From Haloarchaeobius amylolyticus (lineage in GTDB: Archaea; Halobacteriota; Halobacteria; Halobacteriales; Natrialbaceae): a stretch of DNA of 64,000 nt. The translations under genes and the position numbers were made by a program. Below are positions 9,201 through 39,740 of this stretch, piece after piece. The stretch is from the NCBI RefSeq assembly GCF_026616195.1, contig NZ_JANHDH010000003.1, positions 372,001 to 436,000 of the forward strand. Direction: 5' to 3'. Position 1 is the stretch's first letter. Each line of letters starts with the position of its first letter. The notes below the pieces were generated by a model. It ran no database searches and was not told the origin of the DNA. It was given only the letters and a program-made list of their open reading frames with translations.

Positions 9201-10695
9201 GTCGGTCCCGTGGGGCGACGCCGTCCCCGCCGACGAACCCACCGACTTCGGCTACAACTTCTCGTGGGCCCGCGACCTCTACCAGGTGTTCACCGCGCTG
9301 GAGACCGTCGGCAAGGTCGAGGAGGCCGCCGACTCGCTCGCGTACATCTACAACTACCAGCAACGCGAGAACGGCTTCCTGCCCCAGAACACCTACCTCG
9401 ACGGCCGGACCCGCTGGGGCGGCGAGCAACTCGACAACATCGCCTTCCCGTCCGTGATGGCCTACCAGCTCTGGGAGCGCCACGGTATCACCTTCGAGGA
9501 GGCCGACTACGACTACGAGCAGGTCCGCGCCTCCGCCGCCTACGTCGTCCGGTCCGGCCCCCACAGCGGGCAGGAGCGCTGGGAGGAGGAGGCCGGCTAC
9601 TCCCCGAGCACCATCGCGGCCGAGATCGCCGGCCTCGCGTGTGCCGCCTGGCTGGCCGACGCCGAGGGCGAGACCGCCGACGCCATCGACTTCCTCGCCC
9701 ACGCCGACGCCTACCGCCGCGGCGTCGAACGCTGGTGTGCCACCACGACCGGCACGAACCGCATCGACAACACCCCGTACTACGTCCGGGTCACCCGCAA
9801 CGGCGAACCCGACAGCGGCACCCGCCGCGAACTCGCCAACCACGGCCCGACGCTGGACGAGCGCGCCATCGTCGACGCCGGCTTCCTCGACCTCGTCCGG
9901 CTGGGCATCCTGCCGTGGGACGACCCGGTCGTCGAGAACTCCGTCGAGGTCGTCGACGAGACCATCCGCGTCGACACCCCGCACGGCCCCGCCTGGTACC
10001 GCTACAACGGCGACGGCTACGGCGAGGTCGGCGAGCGCGAACCCGACGAGGGTGCGCCGTGGGGACTCGACCGCCTCGGACAGGGCCGCCTCTGGCCCAT
10101 CTTCACGGGCGAGCGCGGCGAGTACGAGCTCCGCAGGGGGACGGCCTCCGGCGACCTCGCCCCGCAGAACCTGCTGGAGACGATGGCCGGCTTCGCCAAC
10201 TCCGGCCGGATGATCCCCGAGCAGGTCTGGGACCGCGAGTACGAGACCGAGTACGGCTGGGAGTTCGGCGAGGGCACCGGCGCCGCCACGCCCCTCGCCT
10301 GGAGCATGGCGCAGTACATCCGACTCGCCGACAGCATCGACGCAGGCGAACCCATCGAGACGCCGCGGTTCATCGCCGAGCGCTACATCGGCTCCAACGC
10401 CGCGCCGGTCCCACCGGCGCTCTCGGTCGAGGAGGTCGCCGTCGACGAGGCGACCGAGACCGTCGCGGTCTCGGGCAAGACCAACGCTGCATCCGTCCTC
10501 GTCAAGACCGGCGCGGACCGGACGCTGGTCCCGGTCGACGACGGCGAGTACGCGGTCGAACTCGACTGCGTGCCCCACCAGGGCGACGTGACGGTCATCG
10601 GCGCCACGGGCGAGGAGAACCTCGCCAGCGTCGGCACCGTGATGCTCACGCGGAACCTGCAGACGGAGACGCGGACGGTCCACGGCGACGACTGA
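6205..10695 (+). CDS. Double-domain GH15 glucoamylase (glucan 1,4-alpha-glucosidase)
   Basis: A 1496-residue protein with two successive GH15 units. The first (about 1-640) has YGYTWFRDHAVVGD near 286 and a toroid ending in the ATPLAW phrase. The second (about 670-1410) has FGYNFSWARDLYQVF near 1015, EEAGYSPSTIAAEIAG near 1128 and PEQVWDREYE near 1339, plus its own N-terminal beta-supersandwich. A short beta domain closes the protein (about 1415-1496). GH15 enzymes release glucose from the non-reducing ends of starch or maltodextrins, matching the divergent GH13 genes. No signal peptide is seen. The second unit looks closer to canonical GH15; whether both are active is unknown. Confidence 0.88.
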   Translation: MRIQQGRRIDGERPTTDGLFSGGDGRLVFVERDGSIRDYSYPLSGLYGLDDSRFGVWSADEVAWLDEVETVRQEYYRDTTLVVTEHEADDWTARQYDLTLSGAHVTHVELRGSVPDDAHLVSSLSFVPDGSVQPGGKLAHENAVEVYHDREHDYVTASTGLDNGTGESDLGKFAVGGWDPLGDTVRVAAPFDSEGELAHTTLVTLLTDRTETDRQDALAHLRAVADHHPTDKSLRAVAESQRHGLSGMPHRDAIATDLRTLGLLRAPSGALMKAPEYDPFTESSGGYGYTWFRDHAVVGDALLGVDSSFDLGEAAPDHAAAVRFLCETQLEDGTWPQRVWPKDGALAPGWANGNLESDGEAYQPDQGARAITYLARYLRAHDPSAADRGMAEEAIARGLDGLDATFRGEELGRYQSVWENEGGRFVHGVATALEAYATAALAPVSDDLTERAHEGAHDLVELLDGFWDEEAGVFARRLDADGEPVHDRFDVATLAVASAYRSYARLDHGSEAELSSAQVARLDSHVQSTLDALEQSVGDAVGLARYERDNWRGEGDGDPKVWSVATAWGVVGAAELAALLDEYDPDPDAGEVGQLVERAKGLLEPLLPGGELVSEHGYLAEQSFADGSQDSATPLAWAHGLRLAGIVELDQLGALGAETAAPTGPDEQPTWTTGEKYGIGTVPDHEDPESHVWFTLTEGALTEPRFPRVDLMNVKTLDFLVVDSEGGYAARTHNEHRTDDDAETLSRHTEMVGTDALVYRQTITEDDDDHEWELSVEYVTDPEGDAIVGDVSFSARDDNQYDVYAVADSACSNSGAHDRAAVVGDESEYALTSVDDTPEYLDNAIVDPDGEEYEVAVALASSRSFDVATVGTPDAAHVADLFRGDATAIDHAADAAHGNVVLLGRLGSGVSSVADTLALGFATEGDEDAALTAAGDALDGGFVSVRDGYVNAWQEFVADVSLPNSVQGSSHLANLYRASVMVLKAVEDKTFRGAGIASPSVPWGDAVPADEPTDFGYNFSWARDLYQVFTALETVGKVEEAADSLAYIYNYQQRENGFLPQNTYLDGRTRWGGEQLDNIAFPSVMAYQLWERHGITFEEADYDYEQVRASAAYVVRSGPHSGQERWEEEAGYSPSTIAAEIAGLACAAWLADAEGETADAIDFLAHADAYRRGVERWCATTTGTNRIDNTPYYVRVTRNGEPDSGTRRELANHGPTLDERAIVDAGFLDLVRLGILPWDDPVVENSVEVVDETIRVDTPHGPAWYRYNGDGYGEVGEREPDEGAPWGLDRLGQGRLWPIFTGERGEYELRRGTASGDLAPQNLLETMAGFANSGRMIPEQVWDREYETEYGWEFGEGTGAATPLAWSMAQYIRLADSIDAGEPIETPRFIAERYIGSNAAPVPPALSVEEVAVDEATETVAVSGKTNAASVLVKTGADRTLVPVDDGEYAVELDCVPHQGDVTVIGATGEENLASVGTVMLTRNLQTETRTVHGDD

Positions 10696-25252: not shown

Positions 25253-26437
25253 TTACTCCGATAAATCCTCAACGCTCACAGCAGCACACTCTGGTATGTG
25301 GCTCGGATAGTCTGTGATCGAGACACCACACCACTTGCAGTTCTCCTGTTCTGCGACGATTGTCTCCTTCGTGAAGGCTTGTCGACAGTGGATACAGTGG
25401 TCCTTCTCGCGCGGCGTTCGCTGATGGCACCGGGGGCACTCAATCGGGGCTGTTGGCTCGGGTTCGTCTTCGTCATCGACCTCGAGTCCGTGGATGCGAG
25501 CAACTTCTCGGGCTGAGTCGTCAGCGAAGACGGACACGTATCTGGAGGCGACGTCGCTGCCACGCGTCCAGCCGTGATGGTCTTCGATGTGCGCCTGGTT
25601 CATGCCACGTGAGGCGAGATGCGAGGCGCTGCTCTTTCGGAAGTTGGTGAACGTCACCGGCTTCGTAATGCCGGCGCGTTCAGCGGCATTCTTCAAGATA
25701 TTCGCCAGAGCGTTGTAACTCGGCTTCTCGGGTGTGTTCAGTTTGCTCCAGAGTGGGTCATCGGGGTGGCCACCAGGATGTGCTTCGAGCCAGCGCTGGA
25801 GGAATGGAACGCTTGGGATGAGGCCGATTGAGCGTTGGCCCATCTTCCCCTGGACCGTGATCTGGTAGCCGTGAGTGTAGTCGGTGACGTCACCGAGTCT
25901 CAAACTCCGGAGTTCTCCTGAGCGAGCACCTGCATCCCAGGCGACAGCGATGAGAGCGGCGTCGCGAGGATTGAGCGTTGCCTCGATCATCGGTAGGACG
26001 TCTGCCTTCCACTTCAGCATGTTACTCGGCTCAGGAGCTGGATCGTACGTGCTCGACGTGTTCGATGGGATCCACTCCATCGATTTGGGTGGCCTGTTGC
26101 CGTTCTCGTCCGTGACCCGCCGTCCGAACTGCTTCAACGCGACCCGGTAGTCCCGGTTCGTCTCTTCGTTGTCGTAGTTCCGATGAATCCATCGGACGAT
26201 ATCCTTGGCCGCCTCTTCATCCTCCAGCGCGTTGACGAGGGAACCAGCATGCTCAGCCATTCTGACGTTGTGCCTGAGGAGTTTGAGGTGGCGAAGGTGA
26301 CCCACCTGGCTGGGGATGAGGAACAGCTCGTCACTGAATCTCAGGAGGGCCTCGCAGTCAGCATCATTCACATCGCGTTCTCGATTCTCGAGTTTCTGTC
26401 GTAAGACGTCGATCTGGTGTTCAGGGTCTGAAGTCAT
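25253..26437 (-). CDS. Tyrosine recombinase/integrase with C-terminal zinc ribbons
   Basis: A 394-residue phage-integrase family protein. The core-binding domain is about 1-130; the catalytic domain has R172 (GARSGELRSL), the box-II region NFRKSSASHLASRG with R267, HHGW (H288) and nucleophile Y300 (ASRYVS). A C-terminal extension carries CPRCHQRTPREKDHCIHC and a second CKWCGVS...C cluster, likely zinc ribbons for DNA or protein contact. ATG 26437 overlaps the stop of a 31-codon upstream frame as ATGA. It would integrate or excise the element by site-specific recombination. Confidence 0.88.
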   Translation of the reverse strand: MTSDPEHQIDVLRQKLENRERDVNDADCEALLRFSDELFLIPSQVGHLRHLKLLRHNVRMAEHAGSLVNALEDEEAAKDIVRWIHRNYDNEETNRDYRVALKQFGRRVTDENGNRPPKSMEWIPSNTSSTYDPAPEPSNMLKWKADVLPMIEATLNPRDAALIAVAWDAGARSGELRSLRLGDVTDYTHGYQITVQGKMGQRSIGLIPSVPFLQRWLEAHPGGHPDDPLWSKLNTPEKPSYNALANILKNAAERAGITKPVTFTNFRKSSASHLASRGMNQAHIEDHHGWTRGSDVASRYVSVFADDSAREVARIHGLEVDDEDEPEPTAPIECPRCHQRTPREKDHCIHCRQAFTKETIVAEQENCKWCGVSITDYPSHIPECAAVSVEDLSE

Positions 26438-26529
26438 ACCCAGATTACCAATTCCAGCTGATTTTTGTTCAGTTCCCAATTCTTCGTCAATGCCACAACG
26501 GTCGCTGTGTAAATATGGTCGGTCGACAT
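26434..26529 (-). CDS. 31-codon leader ORF coupled to the integrase
   Basis: The frame encodes MSTDHIYTATVVALTKNW and ends LELVIWV; its TGA overlaps the integrase ATG (ATGA). Its first residues and the DNA upstream match the start of the tfb gene (MATKHIYATGF), so it is a relic of a duplicated tfb 5' end that now heads the integrase transcript. It may only serve to couple translation. Confidence 0.55.
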   Translation of the reverse strand: MSTDHIYTATVVALTKNWELNKNQLELVIWV

Positions 26530-26568
26530 TATCGCAATCACTGTTCTGCAGGGTATTTTCGAGAGGTT

Positions 26569-26596
26569 CCCTGCACCCTTCGGGGGACGAAATAAT
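26569..26596 (-). promoter_or_regulatory. TATA plus G/C palindrome promoter, copy 3 (integrase)
   Basis: Minus strand: ATTATTTCG then TCCCCCGAAGGGTGCAGGG, the most divergent copy. It is about 64 nt before the ATG of the leader ORF, the same distance as in the tfb promoter. Confidence 0.62.
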
Positions 26597-26628
26597 GCTG
26601 TGCGTCGTGGATGCAGGACCGAAGTCGA

Positions 26629-26670
26629 TTAACCAACAGACCACCATCGTGACCAACAGGCGTTGGTTAA
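26629..26670. promoter_or_regulatory. TTAACCAACA inverted repeat, copy B
   Basis: Arms TTAACCAACA (26629-26638) and CGTTGGTTAA (26661-26670) with an internal partial repeat TGACCAACAGG. The spacing from the downstream TATA box, about 33 bp, nearly equals that of copy A at tfb. Confidence 0.62.
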
Positions 26671-28535: not shown

Positions 28536-28643
28536 ATGAATCAGGGGGCTCGTTTTGACGCGTAGAACATGTGTGAGGGGCAAATTTTGAGTAGAACACT
28601 TCTGAGGTAGATGTAGAACGTTCGAGAGGTGACTGACGTTAGT

Positions 28644-29048
28644 CTATCTATCGTTTCTCATCAACAGTATTATTGACACCATCAACGCTATTTGTGCAAC
28701 CATCGCCATGGCACCAAGCAATCCTACCTTGGTTTGTGCTGACCCAGTGAGAGCGGGCAGGCTTACGAACCGGGTGACTACCCAGATGGCAGTGAGCAGA
28801 AGGTTGAACGAAATGCCTAGGCGTAGTGTCCATCTCCCGGGCCTGAACAGTAGACGTACAGCAAGTACCCCCTGGAAAATCCCTACGAAGAGGAAGAACA
28901 AGCCGGGTAAGAGTGTAACAACGAATGCTTCGGGGAGTATCCACAGGTGAATCGCTTGTGAAATGAAAGCAAGTACTGCCCCGAAGTAGCGAAGGGCTAC
29001 ATCGCCAGAAGATCCTAGCTCGTTTGACTCCCTCTCCAGAACGCTCAT
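28644..29048 (-). CDS. Four-helix membrane protein
   Basis: A 134-residue protein with four hydrophobic segments (about 20-40, 45-68, 75-95 and 110-130) and no recognised family. Its ATG directly follows the stop of the multicopper oxidase gene (TGAATG), so both are one operon and it may assist the oxidase at the membrane. Confidence 0.7.
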   Translation of the reverse strand: MSVLERESNELGSSGDVALRYFGAVLAFISQAIHLWILPEAFVVTLLPGLFFLFVGIFQGVLAVRLLFRPGRWTLRLGISFNLLLTAIWVVTRFVSLPALTGSAQTKVGLLGAMAMVAQIALMVSIILLMRNDR

Positions 29049-30617
29049 TCAGACCACCTCGAAGTTGGCCATCATCATCATGTCCTCGTGTTCGAGATTG
29101 TGGCAGTGGAAGACGTACTTACCCCGGTAAGGAGTGAACTTAGCAACCACCCGCACGGTCCCACCGTCGAGGAACACAGTGTCTTTCCAGCCCGCATCAT
29201 ACGGTCCGGGGGGACCACCGTTACGCGAAATCACCTTGAAGTGAACGAGGTGCATGTGTATCGGATGCGCTGGATCGGCATCGAATTCCCATATCTCAGT
29301 AGCGCCGAGGCGAGGTTTCGCATCGATACGCTCGGGGTCGTACCCTTTGTTGTTTATCGTCGACATTCCACCGAGCATCCCCGCGATGAAAAAGAAGCGT
29401 CGCGTCGTCTCCGCTTCACCAGGACTCGGGAAGTCGAGTTGTGGAGCGAGTTGCGCTGGAATTTCACTCTCGTCCTCCTCTTCTCGGACGACCTCGAACC
29501 GCATCACATCCGACACACGTCCTTCTCCGCGACGGTTTACGAGTGTGATCTCGGAGCCGACTGGGTACTGCGAGAAGTCGATAACCACGTCGAAGCGCTC
29601 GGCAGGAGATACGCGAAGCTCGTCATGACGAATCGGTTCCGAAAGGAGGCCGCCATCGCTGCCGATCTGGACGAATGAGTTCCCTTCCGATGGCGACGGC
29701 TCGAGTGCGAGTTCGTAGGCCCGTGCATTGGAGGCGTTCAAAACCCGAAAACGGTACTTCGTGTTCGAGACCTCCATACGCGGCCACGGTGCCCCGTTGA
29801 CAAGAATCGTGTCTCCAAAGACACCGGTATGCGGCCCGAAACTCGTTGAGGCAAGCACTCCGTGGTCACCCAACAGCGATGGGTCGACCGATGGATAGTA
29901 CATCTCACCGTCATCGGTGAACGTTCGATCTGCGATCATGAGAGGTACTTCCTTCTCTCCATCTGGAAGCGGTAGCTCGTCCTCGATGTCATCGCGGATG
30001 AGATAGAACCCTGCCAGTCCCTTGTACACCTGTGGACCGGTGAAATCCATCCTGTGGTCGTGATACCAGAGGGTTGCTGCTCGTTGCTCGTTTGGATACC
30101 TGTACGTTTTCGAGCCGTGTGAAACACCGGCGACGGTTCCAGAGATATGCCCTGGTAAATCGTCTACCGACAAATCAGGTGGCAGGATGAGGTCCGTTGG
30201 AAACCCATCGCTCTCAGGGGGTGTCACCCCACCGTGGAGATGCGTTGAGACCGGCACAGGGAGTTCGTTCCGCTGTTCGATGACTACCTCTCGTCCCCTT
30301 TTAGCTTCGATAGTAGGCCCTGGAAAGATTCCATTGTATCCCCAGATTGTAGTATCGTATCCTGGGAGGATTTCGACTGTTCCCTTCTGCTGTGTAATCT
30401 CATAATAGTCGGTCGTTTCGTCTGAGCTTGTTGGTTCTAGAACTGGAGGGACAGGTAGTGGAACTTCGAACTTCTCGACACGGGGACTCGTTATGTTCAT
30501 CGATTCTACCAGGCGCTCTACTGGCCCAGCGACCCTCCCGAGAGGGGCACCAAGTCCTACACCAGTCAGCAAGCCGAGTTTTACAGACTCCCTTCGAGTG
30601 AACTTCATCTCTCGCAT
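29049..30617 (-). CDS. Multicopper oxidase (CotA/bilirubin-oxidase type), Tat-exported
   Basis: A 522-residue protein. The N-terminus FTRRESVKLGLLTGVGL is a twin-arginine signal. Copper ligands are complete: THLHGG, LWYHDHRMD, HPIHMHLVHF and the type-1 site FHCHNLEHEDMMMM. Such enzymes oxidise phenolics, bilirubin or metal ions such as Mn, Fe and Cu while reducing oxygen to water outside the membrane. It leads an operon with the 28644 membrane protein and has an AACATGT palindrome just before its start. Confidence 0.9.
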   Translation of the reverse strand: MREMKFTRRESVKLGLLTGVGLGAPLGRVAGPVERLVESMNITSPRVEKFEVPLPVPPVLEPTSSDETTDYYEITQQKGTVEILPGYDTTIWGYNGIFPGPTIEAKRGREVVIEQRNELPVPVSTHLHGGVTPPESDGFPTDLILPPDLSVDDLPGHISGTVAGVSHGSKTYRYPNEQRAATLWYHDHRMDFTGPQVYKGLAGFYLIRDDIEDELPLPDGEKEVPLMIADRTFTDDGEMYYPSVDPSLLGDHGVLASTSFGPHTGVFGDTILVNGAPWPRMEVSNTKYRFRVLNASNARAYELALEPSPSEGNSFVQIGSDGGLLSEPIRHDELRVSPAERFDVVIDFSQYPVGSEITLVNRRGEGRVSDVMRFEVVREEEDESEIPAQLAPQLDFPSPGEAETTRRFFFIAGMLGGMSTINNKGYDPERIDAKPRLGATEIWEFDADPAHPIHMHLVHFKVISRNGGPPGPYDAGWKDTVFLDGGTVRVVAKFTPYRGKYVFHCHNLEHEDMMMMANFEVV

Positions 30618-30637: not shown

Positions 30638-30661
30638 GGTCAATATTCAGGTAAACATGTT
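30638..30661 (-). promoter_or_regulatory. AACATGT palindrome site 1 (multicopper oxidase)
   Basis: Minus strand AACATGTTTACCTGAATATT, 44 nt upstream of the oxidase ATG at 30617. It belongs to a family of five sites (30739, 33516, 37411, 39064) with consensus GGTnnACATGTnnACC and a trailing TGATTCC-like tail. Confidence 0.6.
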
Positions 30662-30738
30662 GGCTTCAGCGCCTCCCTGTCTCGGAGTCTGTAGACAGCA
30701 GAGTGGTGGAGTGAAACACTACGACAATTGAGGCGGTG

Positions 30739-30764
30739 AACATGTAGACCTCAATCCTGATTCC
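30739..30764 (+). promoter_or_regulatory. AACATGT palindrome site 2
   Basis: AACATGTAGACCTCAATCCT followed by GATTCC, starting exactly 49 nt before the ATG at 30788. No good TATA box follows, which fits an activator-dependent promoter. Confidence 0.62.
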
Positions 30765-30787
30765 TTGTTCCGGTCTTCACCCAGTCG

Positions 30788-31198
30788 ATGACGACAGTCT
30801 CGGACTTACAGTGGAAACAAATCGTCGTTGGTGGTATCGTCCCGCACGTCATTTCGACCGGGCTTCTAATCGCGTGGCTTGTAGCCTACACCTTCCTCCT
30901 TGCATTCCAAACGGGGGGAGAGCCAGACGGTGGTGCCTTACAGCAGTTCAGTACCATCTCTGGCACCTTGATATTCCCATTGCTAACGATTCTGTTGACT
31001 GTAGTCGCAGCGGGATGGGTCGCGCAGCGAGTTGACTCTGATACAGTAACTATCCACGGTGTTGCAGTGGGTGTTCTTGCTGGCCTAGTCGGGTTCGCGT
31101 TCGGAGCTCTGGACGTGATGATGTTGATTCGGTTTGGTCTCACTGTTGGGGCAGGAGTGCTTGGCGCAAAACTTGCACCGGCCCTCTTGCGAGGCTAG
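30788..31198 (+). CDS. Four-helix membrane protein, paralogue A
   Basis: A 136-residue protein with four hydrophobic segments (about 13-38, 55-80, 88-108 and 110-133). It is clearly paralogous to the protein at 33565: both have L-W-K-(Q/R)-IV-GG near the start, QQFS(T/M)(I/V)SG in the middle and GFAFGALD or GLAFGALD near the end. Family not recognised. It is followed after 7 nt by an alpha/beta hydrolase, so they form an operon. Confidence 0.72.
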   Translation: MTTVSDLQWKQIVVGGIVPHVISTGLLIAWLVAYTFLLAFQTGGEPDGGALQQFSTISGTLIFPLLTILLTVVAAGWVAQRVDSDTVTIHGVAVGVLAGLVGFAFGALDVMMLIRFGLTVGAGVLGAKLAPALLRG

Positions 31199-31205
31199 CG
31201 GTACG

Positions 31206-31943
31206 ATGAGCGAGTTCTCTGAGGCGACCGATTGTGATATCGGATTCGTACTGGTCCATGGCGCTGGATTCGATGTATGGATTTGGGAAGAGTTGGTCTC
31301 GCTCGTTGACGCTCCGATGTTACCAGTCAGGTTTCCGGCCCGAGCAGCCGAGCAGCCGGTACGAGACAACCTCCAGTTGGTGGACTACGTGGAAGCCATC
31401 GTGAAACAGATTGAGGAGTGGGATGTTTCCACTGTCATTCTCGTTGGTCATTCAATAGGGGGTTCAATTTGCGTGGAAGTCGCAGACCGTCTTTCTGACT
31501 GCACCGCAGGGTTTGTCGGTCTGTGTGCAGCCATCCCAGAGTGCGGTCAGTCGTTCATGTCTTGTCTCCCATTCCACGAACAGGTAGTCCAGAGGTTCAT
31601 AATGCGACTTGTGGGAACGAAGCCACCGGAGCGAATCATCAAGCGGTCTCTCTGTGCAGAGCTGACTGACGAGCAGGCAGACGATGTGATTTCTCGGTTC
31701 GTCCCAGAATCACGCCATCTCTATACCGACCCAGTGAACGGCAGTATTCCGAACGTTCTCCGGATGTACATTCAAACTCAAAATGATGAGTCTATCCACC
31801 CTGATCAACAGGTAACCAGCGCGGAAACCTTGGGGACTAACGAGGTTATTACGCTCAATTCAGGGCATCTGCCGATGCTTAGCTGCCCAAGAGAGTTAGC
31901 GTCTATCTTGCTCCAATTTCGAGATCAGATGGGAACACGGTGA
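31206..31943 (+). CDS. Alpha/beta hydrolase
   Basis: A 245-residue protein with oxyanion-hole phrase VLVHGAGFD, nucleophile elbow GHSIGGS and late histidine NSGHLPML: the Ser-Asp/Glu-His hydrolase arrangement of esterases and methylesterase/hydroxynitrile-lyase-like enzymes. Substrate unknown. ATG 31206 is selected; an upstream ATG at 31134 would sit inside the preceding membrane-protein gene. Confidence 0.8.
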   Translation: MSEFSEATDCDIGFVLVHGAGFDVWIWEELVSLVDAPMLPVRFPARAAEQPVRDNLQLVDYVEAIVKQIEEWDVSTVILVGHSIGGSICVEVADRLSDCTAGFVGLCAAIPECGQSFMSCLPFHEQVVQRFIMRLVGTKPPERIIKRSLCAELTDEQADDVISRFVPESRHLYTDPVNGSIPNVLRMYIQTQNDESIHPDQQVTSAETLGTNEVITLNSGHLPMLSCPRELASILLQFRDQMGTR

Positions 31944-31961
31944 TACCGTGTTGTGAATATC

Positions 31962-32077
31962 TGTGACATCCTCTCCGCCGTGGATGGCGGGGCTTCCCGT
32001 ACCGCAGGTGGGACATTTGCTGGTCTACAGAGGAAACAAGGCGAGTGCCTCGGGGCTTGACCCCCGGGGCGGTTCAC
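31962..32077 (+). mobile_element. PATE/IS200-605-like remnant with two hairpins
   Basis: A non-coding 116-bp unit: a first palindrome CCGCCGTGGATGGCGGGGCT (31976-31995) after GTGACATCCTCT, typical of left ends near haloarchaeal IS200/IS605 elements, and a second hairpin GCCTCGGGGCTTGACCCCCG (32047-32066) ending GGCGGTTCAC. The second hairpin recurs at 56019 and 61003. No transposase frame is left. Naming as PATE-like follows from these end palindromes. Confidence 0.55.
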
Positions 32078-32329
32078 ATTATCAACCAGGTTCGTTCCCC
32101 GCGGTGAAATCTCTGTGGTGAAAGGACGTGGTTGACCCAGTCATGGTCTCCTGTGGTCGAAGGGAAGCATCGAGACTTCCTCATCAACATGTTCATCTGA
32201 ATGCTGATGCGAAACCGACTGCAGTTACTTTCTGATGGTCGAAAGATCAGTACCCGATAGCAGAACAGTGCCTGAAGGCGTTGATTTCGAAGCACGGAGA
32301 ATCGAATCCAGTCTCTCTCGGTGGTCACG

Positions 32330-33511
32330 ATGACCCAGTCAAACGAAGATCGGAAAGCCCTGATAATTGGCTGTGGCGTGGCTGGCCCGGTTCTCGCAAT
32401 GTATCTCCAACGAGTCGGCATCACGCCAATCATCTACGAGGGACGGTCAGAACCCAGAGATGAGGAGGGTTTCTTCCTCAATCTTGCAAAGAATGGAACG
32501 GATGTTCTGGAAACTCTCGGCATCGAAGACGAGGTCCTCGAAAACGGCCACCAGTCGAATCGCCTGGTTTTCCAGAATCACAAACAGAAAAGACTCGGTG
32601 AGAATCCCTCGGAAACGGTTGTGATTAAACGCGGGCTCTTGACCAAGGCCCTTCGGGAAGCAGCCACCGAGCGTGGCATCACGGTGGAGTTCGGAAAGCG
32701 TTTGGTAGACGTTCAGGTGCCACACGATGACATGGCGATTGCTTACTTCGAGGACGGTACAGAAGCGCACGGAGACTTCCTCGTCGGCTGTGACGGAATC
32801 CATTCACAGACCCGACGCTCGATGTTCCCTAATGCCCCTGAACCAGAGTATACGGGAATAATCGATTCCGGGGCGTTCACGCACAACGATTCGATTCCAC
32901 AGTCGGATGGCGTGATGAGGATGACGTTTGGCGTGGACGGTTTCTTTGGGTATCAAAAGGTTCCAACGGGAGAGATTTTCTGGTTCGAGAATCACGAGCG
33001 GAAGCAGGCTCCTGATCGAGCAGAACTGGAGACCATTCCGCAAGCAGAGTGGAAAGAGAAATTGCTTCATCTTCACAAGGACGACCACGAGGAAGTCACC
33101 GAAATCATCCGCTCGACCGACGGTGAAATCGGGAAGTGGCCAGTATACGATCTGCCCGCGCTTCCAACCTGGCATACAAAGACAGTTTGTCTCATCGGTG
33201 ACGCTGCCCATGCAACGTCTCCCCACGTTGGACAGGGGGCGTCGCTCGCCATGGAAGACGCAATCGTTCTGGCAAAGTGTGTACGGGACCTCGAAAACGC
33301 CCAGGACGCGTTCGAGAGGTTCGAATCGTTGCGACGAGACCGGGTCGAAGAGATTGTTGAGATATCTCGAGAGACAGGCAATCAGAAAGCACCGTCAAAC
33401 ATCGTCGCTCGAAAAATACGGGATCTTATTCTTCCATTCTTCCTGAAGCGGGGAGTGGAGAACTTCGAAAAAATCTATTCCTACAGAGTTGACTGGGCCG
33501 AGCCGGTGTGA
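32330..33511 (+). CDS. FAD-dependent aromatic monooxygenase-like protein
   Basis: A 393-residue class A flavoprotein monooxygenase: ALIIGCGVAGPVLAMYL (Rossmann GxGxxG), VGCDGIHSQTR (DG motif) and CLIGDAAHATSPHVGQGASL (GD motif). Such enzymes hydroxylate aromatic or polyketide-like compounds with NAD(P)H and oxygen; members include TetX-like degraders. The substrate is unknown. ATG 32330 is preferred over GTG 32321. It follows a PATE-like remnant and has about 250 bp of empty DNA upstream. Confidence 0.85.
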   Translation: MTQSNEDRKALIIGCGVAGPVLAMYLQRVGITPIIYEGRSEPRDEEGFFLNLAKNGTDVLETLGIEDEVLENGHQSNRLVFQNHKQKRLGENPSETVVIKRGLLTKALREAATERGITVEFGKRLVDVQVPHDDMAIAYFEDGTEAHGDFLVGCDGIHSQTRRSMFPNAPEPEYTGIIDSGAFTHNDSIPQSDGVMRMTFGVDGFFGYQKVPTGEIFWFENHERKQAPDRAELETIPQAEWKEKLLHLHKDDHEEVTEIIRSTDGEIGKWPVYDLPALPTWHTKTVCLIGDAAHATSPHVGQGASLAMEDAIVLAKCVRDLENAQDAFERFESLRRDRVEEIVEISRETGNQKAPSNIVARKIRDLILPFFLKRGVENFEKIYSYRVDWAEPV

Positions 33512-33515
33512 CATG

Positions 33516-33541
33516 AACATGTAGACGTGAATTCTGATTCC
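33516..33541 (+). promoter_or_regulatory. AACATGT palindrome site 3
   Basis: AACATGTAGACGTGAATTCT then GATTCC, starting exactly 49 nt before ATG 33565. Nearly identical to site 2, which serves the paralogous gene at 30788. Confidence 0.62.
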
Positions 33542-33564
33542 CCCACAGAAACACCTTACAGTGA

Positions 33565-33975
33565 ATGACGAAAATGAGAGACCTTCACTGGAAACGAATC
33601 GTCGCCGGTGGCGTTGTAACTCACGTGATATCCATGGGAGTTTTGGTCGCGGTAATCGTCGGGTATTCGCTCGTCGGAACCGCAGGGTCAGGAGGCAAGC
33701 CCGATCAACTGGCAATCCAGCAATTCTCTATGGTGTCCGGCGCACTGCTCTTTCCCGCTCTGACGATTCTGATAACAGGGGTTTCGGCTGCATGGGTCGC
33801 CCGAGAGGTAAAATCTAGGACAGCGACGAGTCACGGAGCAGGAGTCGGTATTGTCGTCGGAACTCTTGGCCTCGCGTTCGGCGCCCTTGATTTGACCATG
33901 TTGGTTCGATTTGTGACTACCGTCGTCGCTGGGGTCCTTGGTGCGAAAGTCCATCTGGCTCTCTCAGTAGAATAA
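33565..33975 (+). CDS. Four-helix membrane protein, paralogue B
   Basis: A 136-residue protein, same length and topology as the 30788 product and sharing IVAGGVVTHVIS, QQFSMVSGAL and GLAFGALDLTML. Both paralogues have the same promoter motif at the same distance, so they were duplicated together with their control region. Function unknown. Confidence 0.72.
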   Translation: MTKMRDLHWKRIVAGGVVTHVISMGVLVAVIVGYSLVGTAGSGGKPDQLAIQQFSMVSGALLFPALTILITGVSAAWVAREVKSRTATSHGAGVGIVVGTLGLAFGALDLTMLVRFVTTVVAGVLGAKVHLALSVE

Positions 33976-34156
33976 GAAGTTACGATACTGGCTTTTGTTG
34001 GAATGGTCAAGGGATGAGTGAAACAGTATGTGATATCGAGAGGATGGATGCAGCAGCTAGAGTCCCGTAGACGCCATCACAGCTTGCCTTCGCATCCAGG
34101 GGTCCCGATCTCGTGTTGGCGGTACAATTATTCTAAAAGCTCTTCTGTATTCGAAT

Positions 34157-34513
34157 ATGGGCATCAAGGAGTCGATACTGGAACTGGAGCGGCAGTTGTG
34201 GAACGCTGACAAGGAGTTCTATCAGGACGCACTCTCGGAGGATGCTGTGATGGTATTTCCCGAACCGACTGGTATACTAGAGCGGTCGGCGGTGCTGGAG
34301 TCTCTTGGAGGGGCCGACAGATGGCAGCGTATCGAATTCGACGAGGAGCGACTGGTCGAAGTCGATGACGACGTCGTCCAGGTGGTCTACCGAGCAGTTG
34401 CAGAACGCAGTGAGGATGGATCTGAGTACACCGCTCTCGTCACCACGACGTACGTCGAAGCCAACGGGTCGTGGCAACTGCGCACTCACCAACAGACCCC
34501 TGTCGGCGAGTAA
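34157..34513 (+). CDS. SnoaL-like/NTF2-fold protein (DUF4440 type)
   Basis: A 118-residue protein beginning IKESILELERQLWNADKEFY and ending with beta strands VTTTYVEANGSWQLRTHQQT, the typical NTF2-like cone fold. Members are small-molecule-binding enzymes or scavengers; nothing shows the ligand. AATTATTCTAAA (34128-34139) about 25 nt upstream is a likely TATA box for a short-leader transcript. Confidence 0.75.
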   Translation: MGIKESILELERQLWNADKEFYQDALSEDAVMVFPEPTGILERSAVLESLGGADRWQRIEFDEERLVEVDDDVVQVVYRAVAERSEDGSEYTALVTTTYVEANGSWQLRTHQQTPVGE

Positions 34514-34607
34514 CCTGTATTCTGCCATCGCTTCCTGACACACGTCCTGTATATAGCACAGCGTCGTTGAACTGTCCGTGCCCGAGAATCTCGATAGAGC
34601 CACAATT

Positions 34608-35591
34608 TCACAAATCAACGCTTGTGTAGGGGCCCCGATCAGGGCGACCATGGGAGAGAAACGCCTCGGGCCCGTCAAGAGCAATCGCCCACGACCAGAG
34701 CGTCTCCACATCCGTCGATTCATCCGGTGTCGAACAAGCACAGACACCAGTTTCAGTGTCTGAGAGCGTTTGTTTCAGGTCGCTGAGTGAGAGAGGAGAA
34801 CCCGCTGATTCTACCCATTCAGTGATCGACGCCTGCCGCTCTTTACTACTCGAGCGACTACCGTCTTCCTGTTCGTACTTAGTCATCGAGTCTGATTGGA
34901 AGTGGTTGGTCACTACACCGAACCCTTGGGGATATGATGTAGTAACTGTCTCAGGACTTGCCTCGACGACCGCTATCGCCCCAGACCCATCAGCCAACAA
35001 AAAGTTCGTGTTTCGTGCATGTGTTACATCTTCAAGGAACGCCACCGCTTCGCCAACAGATTGGCACGTTTCCAGCACGGTCCGAGCCGCAAGAGAGAAC
35101 ATCAGCCCCGGTTTCAACCCCCTATGAGGAACGAAACTGTGGCCGATAGCAAGACCGGCTTCGTTGACGCCGTCGTGTCGCCCAGTCCAGTGGTCTGAAC
35201 ACCCGACGTGGGAAAACCCCCTCGCAGGTTGAGTCCGAAACATGGTGGCGAAATCGGCGAATTCCGTCGAGAAATCGTAGTTCCGTCCGAATAGCTGTCG
35301 ACCATCGGCACAGTGTTCTCCAGATAGTGAGACGACAGTACACCCATGGTCCCAGCCGAGCGCAATTGGTATTGCTCTGATCCGTTCGAGATTCCAGTCT
35401 CCTGCGTCGGCGATGCCACGGAGCTCATCAAGAATACCAGGTGCAGCCCTCTCGACGTACGGTAGACAATCTATAACGAACTGTCTCTGAGTGGGTGTGA
35501 CTTCTGGTGGCTCGAACCCATGTTCTCTGAGGATAGTCCCGTATTGGTGCCCGATTTCGAACGCAGTACCAGAAAGGGTGACTTCATCCAT
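34608..35591 (-). CDS. C45-family autoproteolytic acyltransferase/hydrolase
   Basis: A 327-residue Ntn-hydrolase of the penicillin-acyltransferase (AAT) family. The likely processing site is the Cys in DHGCTVVSLSG (residue near 83), which would become the N-terminal nucleophile; FGRNYDF and NEAGLAIGHS further on match the family. These enzymes hydrolyse amides or transfer acyl groups. Starts at ATG 35591 or 35600 are nearly equivalent. The neighbour genes give no pathway. Confidence 0.8.
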   Translation of the reverse strand: MDEVTLSGTAFEIGHQYGTILREHGFEPPEVTPTQRQFVIDCLPYVERAAPGILDELRGIADAGDWNLERIRAIPIALGWDHGCTVVSLSGEHCADGRQLFGRNYDFSTEFADFATMFRTQPARGFSHVGCSDHWTGRHDGVNEAGLAIGHSFVPHRGLKPGLMFSLAARTVLETCQSVGEAVAFLEDVTHARNTNFLLADGSGAIAVVEASPETVTTSYPQGFGVVTNHFQSDSMTKYEQEDGSRSSSKERQASITEWVESAGSPLSLSDLKQTLSDTETGVCACSTPDESTDVETLWSWAIALDGPEAFLSHGRPDRGPYTSVDL

Positions 35592-35686
35592 GGATATCAT
35601 CCGGAACAGATAGTCACACCAACAATAACGTCTCTGGTGAACGTGTTCATCATAGGTATCTGGATATGGGAACATCTGGCTCTGTT

Positions 35687-35736
35687 GAAACCCTCAGAAA
35701 TTGATAGAAACTGCGTGCTAAATAGAGAGGATGGGC
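35687..35736 (+). repeat. IS end-like sequence before the transposase
   Basis: CTCTGTTGAAACCCTCAG followed by GTGCTAAATAGAGAGGATG (35712-35730). The second half is the reverse complement of the outer end of the small-gene cassettes (CATCCTCTCTATTCAGCAC at 59847). A similar CTCTGTTAAAA stretch precedes cassette 3 at 63065. It probably marks the left end of the IS-like unit carrying the broken transposase. Confidence 0.5.
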
Positions 35737-35829
35737 CTTGTTTAGACGCTCAAACTTTAACAGCGTAGAGTCAATCGACCTCGTATCGCTGTGCTAGTAG
35801 CTCCGGAGAAATACCAAATCTACTAGGAA

Positions 35830-36689
35830 GTGAAGCGGGACGGGTTCGTTGTGCACACGAAGACCTCCCGCTTCACAGAGATGGTTGTATCGCTCGCTCA
35901 AAAAGCCGTCGTTGGCCCGCCAGCTCCAGCCTACCGTCCGGGTGAAGAAGGCTACGCTGACTGGGTGATCCTCGCCGTTCAGGGGCTCAAAGAGTATCTC
36001 GGCCATCCGTACCGGAAGCTGATGGACGTCCTCCGCGAGATGCCAAGAGTGGCGAATTTGCTCGACTTGACGCCTGAGACGGTTCCGCACTTCTCGACGG
36101 TGTGTACGCGAAAGCAGTCGATTCCGATGAAGCGGTGGCGGGCGATCCTCGATCAGTCTGTCGAGTTGTACGAGCTCGGTGATGTTCAGGCAATCGACGC
36201 AACCGGCGTGGATCGCGTCCAAGCCAGCCAGCACTACGCCAAACGCACCGACTACACGTTCGAGGCCGTGAAGACCACGCTGTTGATCGATTGCGAGACC
36301 AGCGCGATTCTAGATATACACTGTTCGATGAAACAACCACACGACACACAGGTTGGCTGGCAGGTGCTAACCCGGAATTTAGATAAGCTGGCGGCTGTAG
36401 CAGCCGATAAGGGCTACGACTGGGAGCAGATTCGCACACGGTTGCGAGCGGAAGCTGTCACACCGCTGATTCCGCAGCGAGATCCCGGGTTCCGGGGGTG
36501 GGCACGAAATTTTCTCATCCGTGATCGGGCGTATAATCAACGCTCAAACGCTGAATCGGTGTTTTTCGGCTCCGGTGCAGATACGGTGACACGCTCTGGG
36601 CGAGAACCTGGTTCGGTCAATTCCGTGAAATTGTCATGAAATCCGCGGTCCGCAACATCGAACGCGCCATCGAGGACTCACACCCGTGA
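35830..36689 (+). pseudogene. IS5-family transposase, frameshifted
   Basis: The frame encodes a DDE transposase with DVQAIDATGVDR, MKQPHDTQVGWQVL and ADKGYDW motifs. After VFFG (about 36571) it leaves the family sequence; in the next frame the expected end LRCRYGDTLWARTWFGQFRE continues to a TGA at 36687-36689. One missing base near 36570 explains this. The start is GTG 35830. The unit cannot encode an intact enzyme without frameshifting. Confidence 0.8.
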
Positions 36690-36855
36690 AATCATGCGTT
36701 CAAACAAGGCCGAGAGGATGTATCCATCACGGCGAACCATCGAGCAGGACTCGATACGGTGACGACAACCCGCCCATTTCTGCGGGCACATTTCTATTGC
36801 CGAAGGAGACAGGCACAGAGAATACTGCTATCTACGAGTACAGCGTATAGGGTCC

Positions 36856-37287
36856 ATGGCCGTTAAATCATCAACTGAGCAGAACAAGGCCGTCGTTACT
36901 CGTTTTGTCGAGGAGGTCTGGGAGAACGGTAACGTCGATGCGATCGACACCCTGTTCACCGAGGACTCGGTTCTCCACGACCCGACCGGGGATGTTCGCG
37001 GCCGGGAGGCCTTCAAGACGTACAACGAACGGTACCTGGCCGCGTTTCCCGATCTTCAATACGACATCGAGGATATGATCGCGGAAGGTGACAGAGTAGT
37101 CTTCCGTGCTCGAATGCGGGGTACTCACGAGGGGGAGTTCATGGGCTTCGAACCGACCGGGCAACGCTTCGATGCGGAAGGGATCATCATCGCCCGTCTC
37201 GAGGACGGGATGATCGCTGAACGATGGGCGAGTTACGATGCACTCGGCATGATGAGACAACTCGGCATCCTCCCGGATGCCCCGTGA
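36856..37287 (+). CDS. SnoaL-like ester cyclase-type protein
   Basis: A 143-residue NTF2-fold protein of the SnoaL polyketide-cyclase-like group: FVEEVWENGNVDAIDTLF, LHDPTGDVRGREAF, AFPDLQYDIEDMIAEGDRVV and FEPTGQRFDAEGIIIARLED. Despite the family name most members are not polyketide cyclases. It lies between the broken transposase and an IS-like end at 37297, so it may have moved with the element. Confidence 0.82.
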   Translation: MAVKSSTEQNKAVVTRFVEEVWENGNVDAIDTLFTEDSVLHDPTGDVRGREAFKTYNERYLAAFPDLQYDIEDMIAEGDRVVFRARMRGTHEGEFMGFEPTGQRFDAEGIIIARLEDGMIAERWASYDALGMMRQLGILPDAP

Positions 37288-37296
37288 CCGATACGC

Positions 37297-37318
37297 ACTC
37301 TGTATTCAGCACGGCCTC
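37297..37318. repeat. Outer end motif of IS/cassette family
   Basis: GCACTCTGTATTCAGCACGGCC closely matches the right outer end of cassette 2 (CTCTCTATTCAGCACGGC, 59851-59868) and is the inverse of the cassette left end (GTGCTGAATACAG). With the 35712 motif it could bound a 1.6-kb unit. Confidence 0.5.
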
Positions 37319-37410
37319 AACATGCTATCAGTGGCCGAAGATTTCGACAGAGCCGCACATCTGATTGTGAGGAGGGTAGGAGCAGCGAAATTCCTGGATT
37401 ATCCAACGAC

Positions 37411-37437
37411 AACATGTATACGTGAATCTTGATTCGG
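37411..37437 (+). promoter_or_regulatory. AACATGT palindrome site 4
   Basis: AACATGTATACGTGAATCTT then GATTCGG. It starts 49 nt before the ATG at 37460, the start of a 24-codon frame, and 114 nt before the next gene, which has its own ribosome-binding site. Confidence 0.58.
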
Positions 37438-37459
37438 GTTTCCCCGCTTGTCGGAACTG

Positions 37460-37534
37460 ATGAGAGATTCCGTTATGGACATAGAGGCGGTTACTTGGGT
37501 GGCTACTGAACAGGGGAGGAGTCAATGGTATTGA
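37460..37534 (+). CDS. 24-codon leader ORF
   Basis: The frame MRDSVMDIEAVTWVATEQG...WY begins exactly 49 nt after the AACATGT motif, the distance seen at two true gene starts, and overlaps the following gene by 10 nt. Too short to judge by content; the spacing is the main argument that translation begins here. Confidence 0.35.
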   Translation: MRDSVMDIEAVTWVATEQGRSQWY

Positions 37535-37737
37535 TCCCAGACAAGTTCCGAAATCGTGGCAAGCGCGTCGCGAATGGGCTCAACCAAGTCACTGTCGCGG
37601 TCTGGGACGATTCAAGCCTTGTCGTGAAAATTGGAATCCTGATCCTGCTGATTGGTACCGGTACCGCGGTTCCGTTGATTCCGGTCGCCCTGGTCGCACG
37701 ATATCTCGCTGTATCGAGTGCGGGGTATCAGATTTGA
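37525..37737 (+). CDS. Small single-helix membrane protein
   Basis: A 70-residue protein with a basic N-terminus (PDKFRNRGKRVANGLNQ) and one strong hydrophobic segment (about 33-60, KIGILILLIGTGTAVPLIPV). GGGGAGGAG directly before the ATG is a strong ribosome-binding site. It precedes the TVP38 gene by 12 nt, so both are in one operon. Confidence 0.65.
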   Translation: MVLIPDKFRNRGKRVANGLNQVTVAVWDDSSLVVKIGILILLIGTGTAVPLIPVALVARYLAVSSAGYQI

Positions 37738-37749
37738 GTTACTGGGAGT

Positions 37750-38433
37750 ATGAAACTGTTCGCTACATCTGTGAGTCGGAGCCAGCGTATCGCGCTACTA
37801 ACGACCATCCTCGGAGTTACGGCCATTGCAGGGTATCTTACTCATCAATACTCATCGGCGATTCTGGATCCAACGTACCTTCGTGAATGGATTGGTGGTT
37901 TTGGATATTTTGCCCCACTTGTATTCGTGCTCGTTCAGGTGCTTCAGGTTATCATCGCACCGATTCCCGGGCACATAATGGTACTGCTCGGAGGGTATCT
38001 CTTCGGTCCTGTCTGGGGGACAATCTACAGTATGATCGGGGTGACCATCGGGAGCGGACTTACGTTTCTGATTACGAAGCGATACGGTCGGCCCTTCGTA
38101 GAGCGCGTACTCCACGAGAACATTGTTTCAAGACTAGATGCATTCGTCAGTAAGGCTGGCGCGCCTGGATTGTTGGTATTCTTCGCAATCCCGGGTACGC
38201 CGGACGACGCTGCCTCATTTCTCGCTGGACTCACGAAAATTCGGATTACCACGTTTCTGGTGGTTGTTGTGGTCGGGAGACTCCCAGCCTACGTCCTGAC
38301 GAGTTTCGCTGGTGAGAGCTTTGCCGCAGGTCGTCACTTCGAAGCGGTGGTCATCCTTGGATTGATTGCAGGGGTTTCGGCACTTGCTTACTGGTTCCGC
38401 GGCGATATCAAGCGCAGACTCGTTCAAGAATGA
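37750..38433 (+). CDS. TVP38/TMEM64 (DedA-like) membrane protein
   Basis: A 227-residue protein with about six hydrophobic segments. The family hallmark is present as APIPGHIMVLLGGYLFGPVW...GSGLTFLITKRYGR, followed by FFAIPGTPDDAASFLAGL. These membrane proteins are linked to lipid scrambling and envelope stress tolerance. It lies in the AACATGT-controlled group. Confidence 0.85.
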   Translation: MKLFATSVSRSQRIALLTTILGVTAIAGYLTHQYSSAILDPTYLREWIGGFGYFAPLVFVLVQVLQVIIAPIPGHIMVLLGGYLFGPVWGTIYSMIGVTIGSGLTFLITKRYGRPFVERVLHENIVSRLDAFVSKAGAPGLLVFFAIPGTPDDAASFLAGLTKIRITTFLVVVVVGRLPAYVLTSFAGESFAAGRHFEAVVILGLIAGVSALAYWFRGDIKRRLVQE

Positions 38434-38586
38434 TAGTGGCCCAGAATAAAGGCAGTCGGCGGCGGGATTGATTTGACCTGAGAGGAATTCTTAGGTGCGA
38501 CGATTGTACCGTTATGCCTCCTTGAACCTGAATTTCCATACCACGCTGTGCTCCCCAACAGCTAACGTGTCGGTGACTTTAGTGGT

Positions 38587-39009
38587 TTATTTTTTAGTGA
38601 CTTCTTCGAAGAGGAGCAATTGGTTTTGCTCGTTGTCTTCGAGAACCGCTTCTACCCCATTACTCGTTTCTTCGGGTTCGCTGGAGAAATTCACGCCTCG
38701 TGCTGTGAGCTCATCGTACGCTTTACGACAATCTTCGACTTTGAGACCAAGCATCGGATTGTGACCGATCAATCCCGAATACCGTTGCTCATCGACTCCC
38801 CCGAACCAGTCTGGTGAGCGAAGAATCAGACGTGGCTGCGCTTCGCCAGACGGAGCAACGGTGAGCCACCGGTCGTCCCCCATCGGGATATCTTCTATTT
38901 TTTCAAAGCCCAATTTTTCAGTGTAGAACTGGAGAGACTCTTCTTGGTCACCAACTATCAGTGTGCAATGACTTATCGTGGAAACGCCAATCTCAGCTGT
39001 GTGTTCCAT
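38587..39009 (-). CDS. Glyoxalase/VOC-family protein
   Basis: A 140-residue protein with the VOC beta-alpha-beta-beta-beta pattern: ISHCTLIVGDQEESLQFYTE and LGFEKIED at the start, then NPMLGLKVEDCRKAYDELTARG. Likely metal-coordinating residues are H14 and a late Glu in LLLFEE. Reaction unknown; VOC proteins include dioxygenases, glyoxalases and antibiotic-resistance proteins. It is divergent from the HTH_10 gene, with palindromic site 5 between them. Confidence 0.8.
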   Translation of the reverse strand: MEHTAEIGVSTISHCTLIVGDQEESLQFYTEKLGFEKIEDIPMGDDRWLTVAPSGEAQPRLILRSPDWFGGVDEQRYSGLIGHNPMLGLKVEDCRKAYDELTARGVNFSSEPEETSNGVEAVLEDNEQNQLLLFEEVTKK

Positions 39010-39059
39010 CGAATTGTTTCACCAATTCGAATGAGTCCAGAAGAGACGAAAGCCGTTCA

Positions 39060-39090
39060 GGTGAACATGTTTACCTCTGCCCCCATTACG
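39060..39090. promoter_or_regulatory. AACATGT palindrome site 5, divergent promoter
   Basis: GGTGAACATGTTTACC is a near-perfect palindrome (AACATGTT at 39064-39071). It begins 47 nt before the HTH_10 gene start at 39111 and lies 55-62 nt before the VOC gene start, so it may control both, including autoregulation of the regulator. Confidence 0.62.
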
Positions 39091-39110: not shown

Positions 39111-39740
39111 ATGCCGCGAGTGCGTCTCAAGGTTGGACCGCTGCCGGATATGGAAGCAGTCGCCAAGTATTTCCCTGACACAATTATCCGGTTTTTAGCC
39201 AATTACCCAACGGACGACGGAGTATGTAGCGTGATAGAGATTCGAACTGATGAACCAGACCGTTTCGTCCAAGAAGCATTGACGCACTGGGATGCACAGA
39301 CTCTTGAGATCCTGCACAAGGACGAGGATACAATCGTCGTTACGTTCGAAGGACAGCCACCAGAGGGGTACTTTGTCTCTCAAGATATCGGCTACCATCC
39401 GACTACTCCTGTCGTTGCCCGTGATGGATATCTCTTCATCGAGTTCGTGATGCCTGAATCGAAAATGGCTGCAATGTGGGAATCACTTGATGAACGTGGT
39501 ATCACGTATGATGTTCTCTCCATCACCGATGGGTACGATGTCCTCGATTCACTCACGGCCAGGCAACGTGAGATTCTCACTGCCGCGATTAAACGTGGGT
39601 ACTATGACACCCCCCGAGAATGTTCGTTAACCGATATTGCTGAGGAACTGGAAGTCAATAAGTCGGTAATCAGTGGGGTCCTTCATCGAGCTGAAGGTGA
39701 GATAATCAAAGACGCCATCGGCGATCCCCGAGACCATTAG
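39111..39740 (+). CDS. HTH_10-family transcriptional regulator
   Basis: A 209-residue protein with a Bat-type N-domain (about 1-140) and a C-terminal HTH_10 motif (about 147-200: LTARQREILTAAIKRGYY, CSLTDIAEELEVNKSVISGV). It is the only regulator in the 28.6-39.8 kb island, and an AACATGT palindrome lies in its own promoter. It is therefore the best candidate for binding all five sites. The signal is unknown; the long N-domain may sense a ligand or redox state. Confidence 0.85.
   Translation: MPRVRLKVGPLPDMEAVAKYFPDTIIRFLANYPTDDGVCSVIEIRTDEPDRFVQEALTHWDAQTLEILHKDEDTIVVTFEGQPPEGYFVSQDIGYHPTTPVVARDGYLFIEFVMPESKMAAMWESLDERGITYDVLSITDGYDVLDSLTARQREILTAAIKRGYYDTPRECSLTDIAEELEVNKSVISGVLHRAEGEIIKDAIGDPRDH

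Follow-up and report, generated by a model that had tools for sequence, protein, structure and literature searches.

A conserved palindrome ahead of start codons as the predicted operator of an HTH_10 regulator in a haloarchaeal gene cluster

A 64,000-nucleotide stretch of Haloarchaeobius amylolyticus DNA (G000:C3:372001-436000, hereafter the window, from a haloarchaeal assembly of 4.6 Mb in six contigs) contains a gene cluster in which a palindrome with the common part AACATGTnnAC lies at short, mostly constant distances ahead of start codons, including that of the HTH_10 regulator gene at 39111. A second replicon of this genome and about ten other species show this arrangement too. We consider it probable, at roughly three chances in four, that this autoregulated protein of the NarO/DmsR kind controls the mobile cluster through these sites, most likely as an activator placed upstream of the B recognition element (BRE) and TATA box; binding and the direction of control are what we infer. 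The regulon is new, while the kind of regulator is already known. HTH_10 proteins are numerous in haloarchaea and few have a known operator; for one such protein, the finding supplies a predicted operator, the genes it is likely to control and a promoter geometry of fixed spacing.

Palindromic sites and their distribution

A first-pass annotation of the window had reported five AACATGT sites, at 30661 (minus strand), 30739, 33516, 37411 and 39064, and each was found at that position, followed by the genes it had been assigned, namely the multicopper oxidase operon, both membrane protein genes, the TVP38 leader and operon and the HTH_10 gene. The longer motif that the sites were thought to share held only in part: AACATGTnnAC is kept at all of them, but GGTnnACATGTnnACC is exact only at 30735-30750 and 39060-39075, the outer arms being altered elsewhere. 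Likewise, the proposed TGATTCC-like tail is seen as TGATTC at 30739, 33516 and 37411 but gives way to TTGACC at 30661 and CATTA at 39064; in most promoters a BRE-like GTSAA or TGAA comes next after the common part. The distances claimed from AACATG to the ATG were recovered for 30739, 33516 and 37411 (49 nt each) and for 39064 (47 nt), but not for the minus-strand site, where the 44 nt counts to an ATG at 30617 and the start codon common to 6/6 orthologues is the ATG at 30608, 53 nt off. Two further sites had been overlooked, a sixth clear one at 32186(+), which scores 26.1 bits with a model from other genomes, and a degenerate one at 35636-35651, whose orthologue on contig C4 carries AACATCTTCACC (17.2 bits). 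The near-symmetric site at 39064 can also be read towards the VOC gene at 39009(-), which lies 62 nt away. Allowing up to two mismatches, the window contains 11 matches against 1.9 expected by chance. The AACATGT occurrences at 28566 and 45782 are without the flanks and the start-codon spacing and were left uncounted; the SnoaL (36856) and DUF4440 (34157) genes, for which no site was found, were left out of the regulon.

The motif search over the genome and its relatives that the first-pass annotation had proposed was carried out with patterns and with models. Genome-wide, AACATGTNNAC forms two dense clusters, C3:402.6-411.1 kb in the window and C4:61.6-69.0 kb. There are 23 matches to AACATGTnnAC, giving five distinct sites in the C3 cluster, six in the C4 cluster and ten further matches that are scattered. 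All ten of the latter lie inside stop-to-stop frames of at least 290 codons, at most three show an ATG or GTG opening at least 20 codons at 40-64 nt, and none has a start at the distances seen in the clusters (44, 47-49, 53 or 62 nt). Frame length alone is no discriminator, because stop-to-stop frames cover two clustered promoter sites as well. The clustered sites stand 44-62 nt ahead of start codons, with the lone exception of C4 63050 (minus), which is the reverse reading of a near-symmetric monooxygenase site. A sequence-only motif model (R1) was trained on 29 promoters of membrane protein, HTH, multicopper oxidase and FAD monooxygenase genes, from other species only. Its top 13 matches in this genome all fall within the two clusters, the first match outside them having E = 0.11, and it recovers the overlooked 32186 site as well as those of the TVP38 and VOC genes, which had no part in its training. 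Placement relative to genes is not random, and chance clustering is ruled out by the genome-wide clustering together with the start-codon placement, both far beyond chance. The proposal of a local regulon served by the HTH_10 protein withstood every computational test capable of contradicting it. The regulon is not only local, however, since another contig holds the second cluster together with a further copy of the regulator gene.

Orthologues of the regulator (72-84% identity) were detected in Halegenticoccus, Haladaptatus, Halovivax, Halorussus and four further genomes. The footprint set for the regulator gene comprises 11 promoters, among them those of the window and of C4; in 11/11 the distance from the start of the site to the ATG is exactly 47 nt, and the site reads AACATG, or AATATG in locus L070 and AACATA in L048. 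The spacing is 49 nt in membrane-protein promoters (n=12), 48 in one of them, and in oxidase promoters the conserved ATG follows at 52-53 nt. Pairwise identity within the palindrome columns is 82-87% across the HTH and membrane-protein promoters, whereas the DNA 56-130 nt upstream is at 25-29%, the chance level; ahead of the regulator gene the site is kept at -47 while its flanks diverge.

With one mismatch allowed, AACATGTNNACNTSAANNNTGATTC was found in 6/392 genomes of the order, and 6/6 of these have the regulator gene, which is broken in one (L051). Twelve genomes without the regulator, five of the same genus, gave no model match above 17.9 bits; the best matches in five genomes with it reach 24-29 bits. 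At this identity the regulator is present in 6/391 sampled genomes of the class, in several families and often on secondary contigs, an occurrence suggestive of horizontal spread. Nine loci (L044, L047, L048, L049, L050, L067, L068, L069 and L070) combine the regulator with the FAD monooxygenase and the membrane protein, and L044, L048, L067, L068 and L069 also have the multicopper oxidase; L046 has only the regulator in the examined stretch and L051 is decayed. In the latter (Haladaptatus pallidirubidus, 9732-10361) the membrane-protein gene is truncated and continues into a frameshifted piece of the HTH_10 gene, and the upstream site is intact. A divergent membrane-like open reading frame (ORF) with a GTG start, 48 nt from its own site, adjoins the regulator at L044 14955(-) and also in L046, L047, L049 and L069; it is not in the window.

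The HTH_10 regulator and related systems

The 209-residue product of the gene at 39111 matches PF04967 (HTH_10) with 60.6 bits against the curated cut-off of 23.1 and so belongs to this family. No Pfam match to a PAS or GAF domain was obtained in it, which sets it apart from Bat in the strict sense. There are 49 matches to the regulator in the genome, chiefly to its HTH part; the only close paralogue (83%, C4:69076-69699) lies inside the second cluster and has its own site. A single-sequence structure model was poor (predicted local distance difference test, pLDDT, 55), and in a model of moderate confidence (pLDDT 74) the N-terminal region appears as an alpha/beta, ferredoxin-like unit. The best fold match was Thermoplasma Ta1207 (5m86; Foldseek E 3.6e-4, TMq 0.48; Z 6.6, root-mean-square deviation 4.6 over 136 residues), and sigma region 4-like HTH matches were also returned; a search for a solved sequence relative gave none that was convincing. 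We have left the sensor domain unnamed because these structural matches are too weak.

Bat of Halobacterium salinarum shares the HTH_10 DNA-binding domain, but has PAS and GAF sensor domains ahead of the HTH, for which the 39111 protein gave no match, and its motif and targets differ. Its site, the bop upstream activator sequence (UAS), is an activator-type site upstream of the promoter. The HTH_10 regulators NarO and DmsR are, like the 39111 protein, without recognised PAS and GAF domains (PMC11218638). Their motif CGAAYATDKTYG (CGAACATGTTCG), taken here from PMC10062603 and PMC11218638, has the same core AACATGTT, and several sites likewise sit in a gene cluster alongside the gene of the regulator, as described for Haloferax mediterranei (PMC11218638). 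However, the present sites read TGAACATGTTTA or CAACATGTTCAT, retaining the core with the outer bases replaced (GTG...CAC instead of CG...CG), and are thus not NarO operators CGAAYATDKTYG. The spacing to start codons is 47-49 nt against 66-79 nt there, and the target enzymes are others. Mutating CGAACATGTTCG in haloarchaeal denitrification promoters reduces their activity in Haloferax mediterranei, most strongly when the outer C is changed to T (PMC10062603); T at that position is the base present in many of the regulon sites. None of the nar, nir, nor or nos families was found among the part of the cluster proteins that was scanned, and a denitrification regulon is ruled out by motif and gene content. 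In its short fixed spacing and its presence at the regulator's own promoter the system also resembles the GvpE UAS of the gas vesicle promoters, and its putative position beside the BRE would be a further likeness. The GvpE UAS adjoins the BRE and its spacing is essential, close fixed placement being needed for activation in haloarchaea (PMC4390858); unlike the present system, GvpE is leucine zipper-like and its UAS consists of two 8-nt elements 4 nt apart (PMC4390858).

Distant HTH_10 homologues also have palindromes in their own promoters, namely CGCAAACATGTTTGCG and CGCGATTATATTCGCG centred 43 nt before the ATG, CTCGAACATGTTCGAA at 46, CCCGAACACGTTCGGG at 51 and CGTGAATATATTCACC at 61 nt. 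Of 20 distinct upstream groups, 7 contain a 16-nt palindrome that is near-perfect and has its centre 38-65 nt before the ATG, against 0.27 expected from shuffles and a maximum of 3 in 500 shuffles; one of the seven (L037) is without the AAYATRTT core. In genome G265 a homologue with 36% identity is preceded, at 47 nt, by a model match. It is conceivable, at a little under even odds in our estimate, that many haloarchaeal HTH_10 regulators are autoregulated through an AAYATRTT-centred palindrome whose outer bases set specificity; if so, the promoters of orphan HTH_10 genes could in many cases reveal the operators of their products. Separately, HTH_10 homologues in L121-L126 have another conserved self-promoter palindrome, of the CCCGAACA-GTTCGGG type, similar to the denitrification motif.

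Proposed mechanism and alternatives

We propose that the palindrome (consensus GTGAACATGTTYACS, core AACATGTT) serves as the operator of the 39111 protein and of its 83% identical C4 paralogue. A dimer would probably bind about 47-49 nt before the start codons of genes that are presumably mostly leaderless, just upstream of the BRE-like GTSAA and of a weak element resembling a TATA box (TGATTC, CATTA), and may help recruit transcription factor B (TFB) and the TATA-binding protein (TBP). In this way the regulator would control its own promoter, the multicopper oxidase operon and both membrane-protein genes, one with a hydrolase. Its further targets would be the TVP38 operon, the VOC gene, the FAD monooxygenase, reached by way of a leader ORF, and probably also the gene resembling acyltransferases. 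The spacing from site to ATG is fixed; the BRE and TATA positions are putative, and the TATA is weak. The absence of good TATA boxes, noted in the first-pass annotation, extends across the regulon: consensus TATA boxes were looked for in 33 promoters and none matched 6/6 positions, the mean match being 3.97 against 3.69 in shuffled upstreams. The basal promoter therefore looks weak, which fits activator-dependent promoters.

The same palindrome abuts the putative BRE position, where an autoregulated HTH_10 repressor could block access of TFB until relieved by a ligand. Autoregulation is common among repressors, and in some distant homologues the palindrome stands directly against a good TATA-like TTTTTAAG. 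We nevertheless find repression unlikely, given the weak-looking basal promoters and the description of NarO, DmsR and Bat as activators (PMC11218638). A different binder, for example a NarO-like HTH_10 paralogue elsewhere that has the 39111 gene merely as a target, might be sought among the 49 genome matches, mostly to the HTH part, and one paralogue, at C3:693273, carries a comparable site CCGAACATGTTCG in its own promoter. This is rather improbable, because across genomes the long motif goes with the 39111 orthologue, is missing from close relatives possessing other HTH_10 genes, and differs from the CGAAYATDKTYG type in its outer bases, where C to T caused the largest loss in nosp (PMC10062603). 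The sites might instead be inert remnants of the duplication and horizontal transfer of the cluster, with no regulatory role. This would accord with the paralogy of the two clusters of this genome and with their patchy occurrence across species, but conservation of the palindrome amid neighbouring DNA that is only chance-alike, and its presence ahead of non-homologous genes, make this explanation very improbable.

Control by the 39111 protein, most likely as an activator, thus remains our preferred reading, and several points weigh against it. The support is computational, from which we infer both HTH_10 binding and control of expression. The sites are not independent, because many precede orthologous genes, and the spacing is not uniform, given 62 nt at the VOC site and 52-53 nt at the multicopper oxidase sites. 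L051 of Haladaptatus pallidirubidus retains the site though its regulator is broken. Finally, the missing TATA and the position upstream of the BRE favour activation, yet are compatible with repression.

Genes of the cluster

The closest matches of the oxidase are CotA laccase and bilirubin oxidases; those of the monooxygenase are tropone, 6-hydroxynicotinate and salicylate hydroxylases and tetracycline destructases. These enzymes suggest that phenolic or other aromatic compounds may be oxidised or detoxified; in several hosts the system, with its laccase-type and FAD-monooxygenase chemistry, is located on secondary replicons. In L047, L067, L068 and L070 the FAD monooxygenase has its own ATG 47-49 nt from the site; in the window, L044, L048, L049 and L069 that distance leads to a 32-residue leader ORF whose stop overlaps the monooxygenase ATG as ATGA. 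This leader keeps its length and overlap in the five loci despite diverged amino acids, suggesting that the leader ORFs may provide translational coupling from a leaderless start.

Table. Genes and palindromic sites of the cluster (window coordinates)
Feature	Position	Strand	Remarks
134-aa membrane-like protein	28644..29048	-	downstream of oxidase; conserved together
CotA/laccase-like multicopper oxidase	29049..30608	-	N terminus Tat-signal-like, read by eye
Palindromic site	30650..30665	-	multicopper oxidase operon promoter; AACATG begins 30661, 53 nt to ATG 30608
Palindromic site GGTGAACATGTAGACC	30735..30750	+	membrane protein 1 ATG 49 nt downstream
Membrane protein 1, 136 aa	30788..31198	+	no accepted family; conserved core
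Alpha/beta hydrolase	31206..31943	+	directly after membrane protein 1
Palindromic site CATCAACATGTTCATC	32182..32197	+	leader-ORF ATG 32235 is 49 nt after AACATG
32-aa leader ORF	32235..32333	+	49 nt after site start; ATGA overlap with FAD monooxygenase start
FAD-dependent monooxygenase, aromatic hydroxylase/tetracycline destructase type	32330..33511	+	conserved core
Palindromic site	33512..33527	+	membrane protein 2 ATG 49 nt downstream
Membrane protein 2	33565..33975	+	paralogue of membrane protein 1
Gene with C4 orthologue	34608..35675	-	product presumably resembles acyltransferases/amidohydrolases
Degenerate site GATGAACACGTTCACC	35636..35651	-	47 nt to in-frame ATG 35600 of acyltransferase/hydrolase-like gene 34608-35675(-)
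Palindromic site	37407..37422	+	49 nt to short leader ORF of TVP38 operon
24-aa leader ORF, TVP38 operon	37460..37534	+	49 nt after site start; overlaps next start codon
70-aa ORF and TVP38/VTT-domain membrane protein	37525..38433	+	
VOC/glyoxalase-like protein	38587..39009	-	C4 orthologue has own site 62 nt upstream
Palindromic site GGTGAACATGTTTACC	39060..39075	+	47 nt to HTH_10 ATG; VOC gene on opposite strand 62 nt away
HTH_10 regulator, 209 aa	39111..39740	+	PF04967 at residues 148-200; presumed binder of sites, autoregulated

A tyrosine-recombinase-like ORF (25253-26656) and an ORF of insertion sequence (IS)-type transposase character (35830-36639), both read by eye, flank and interrupt the cluster, which fits mobility.

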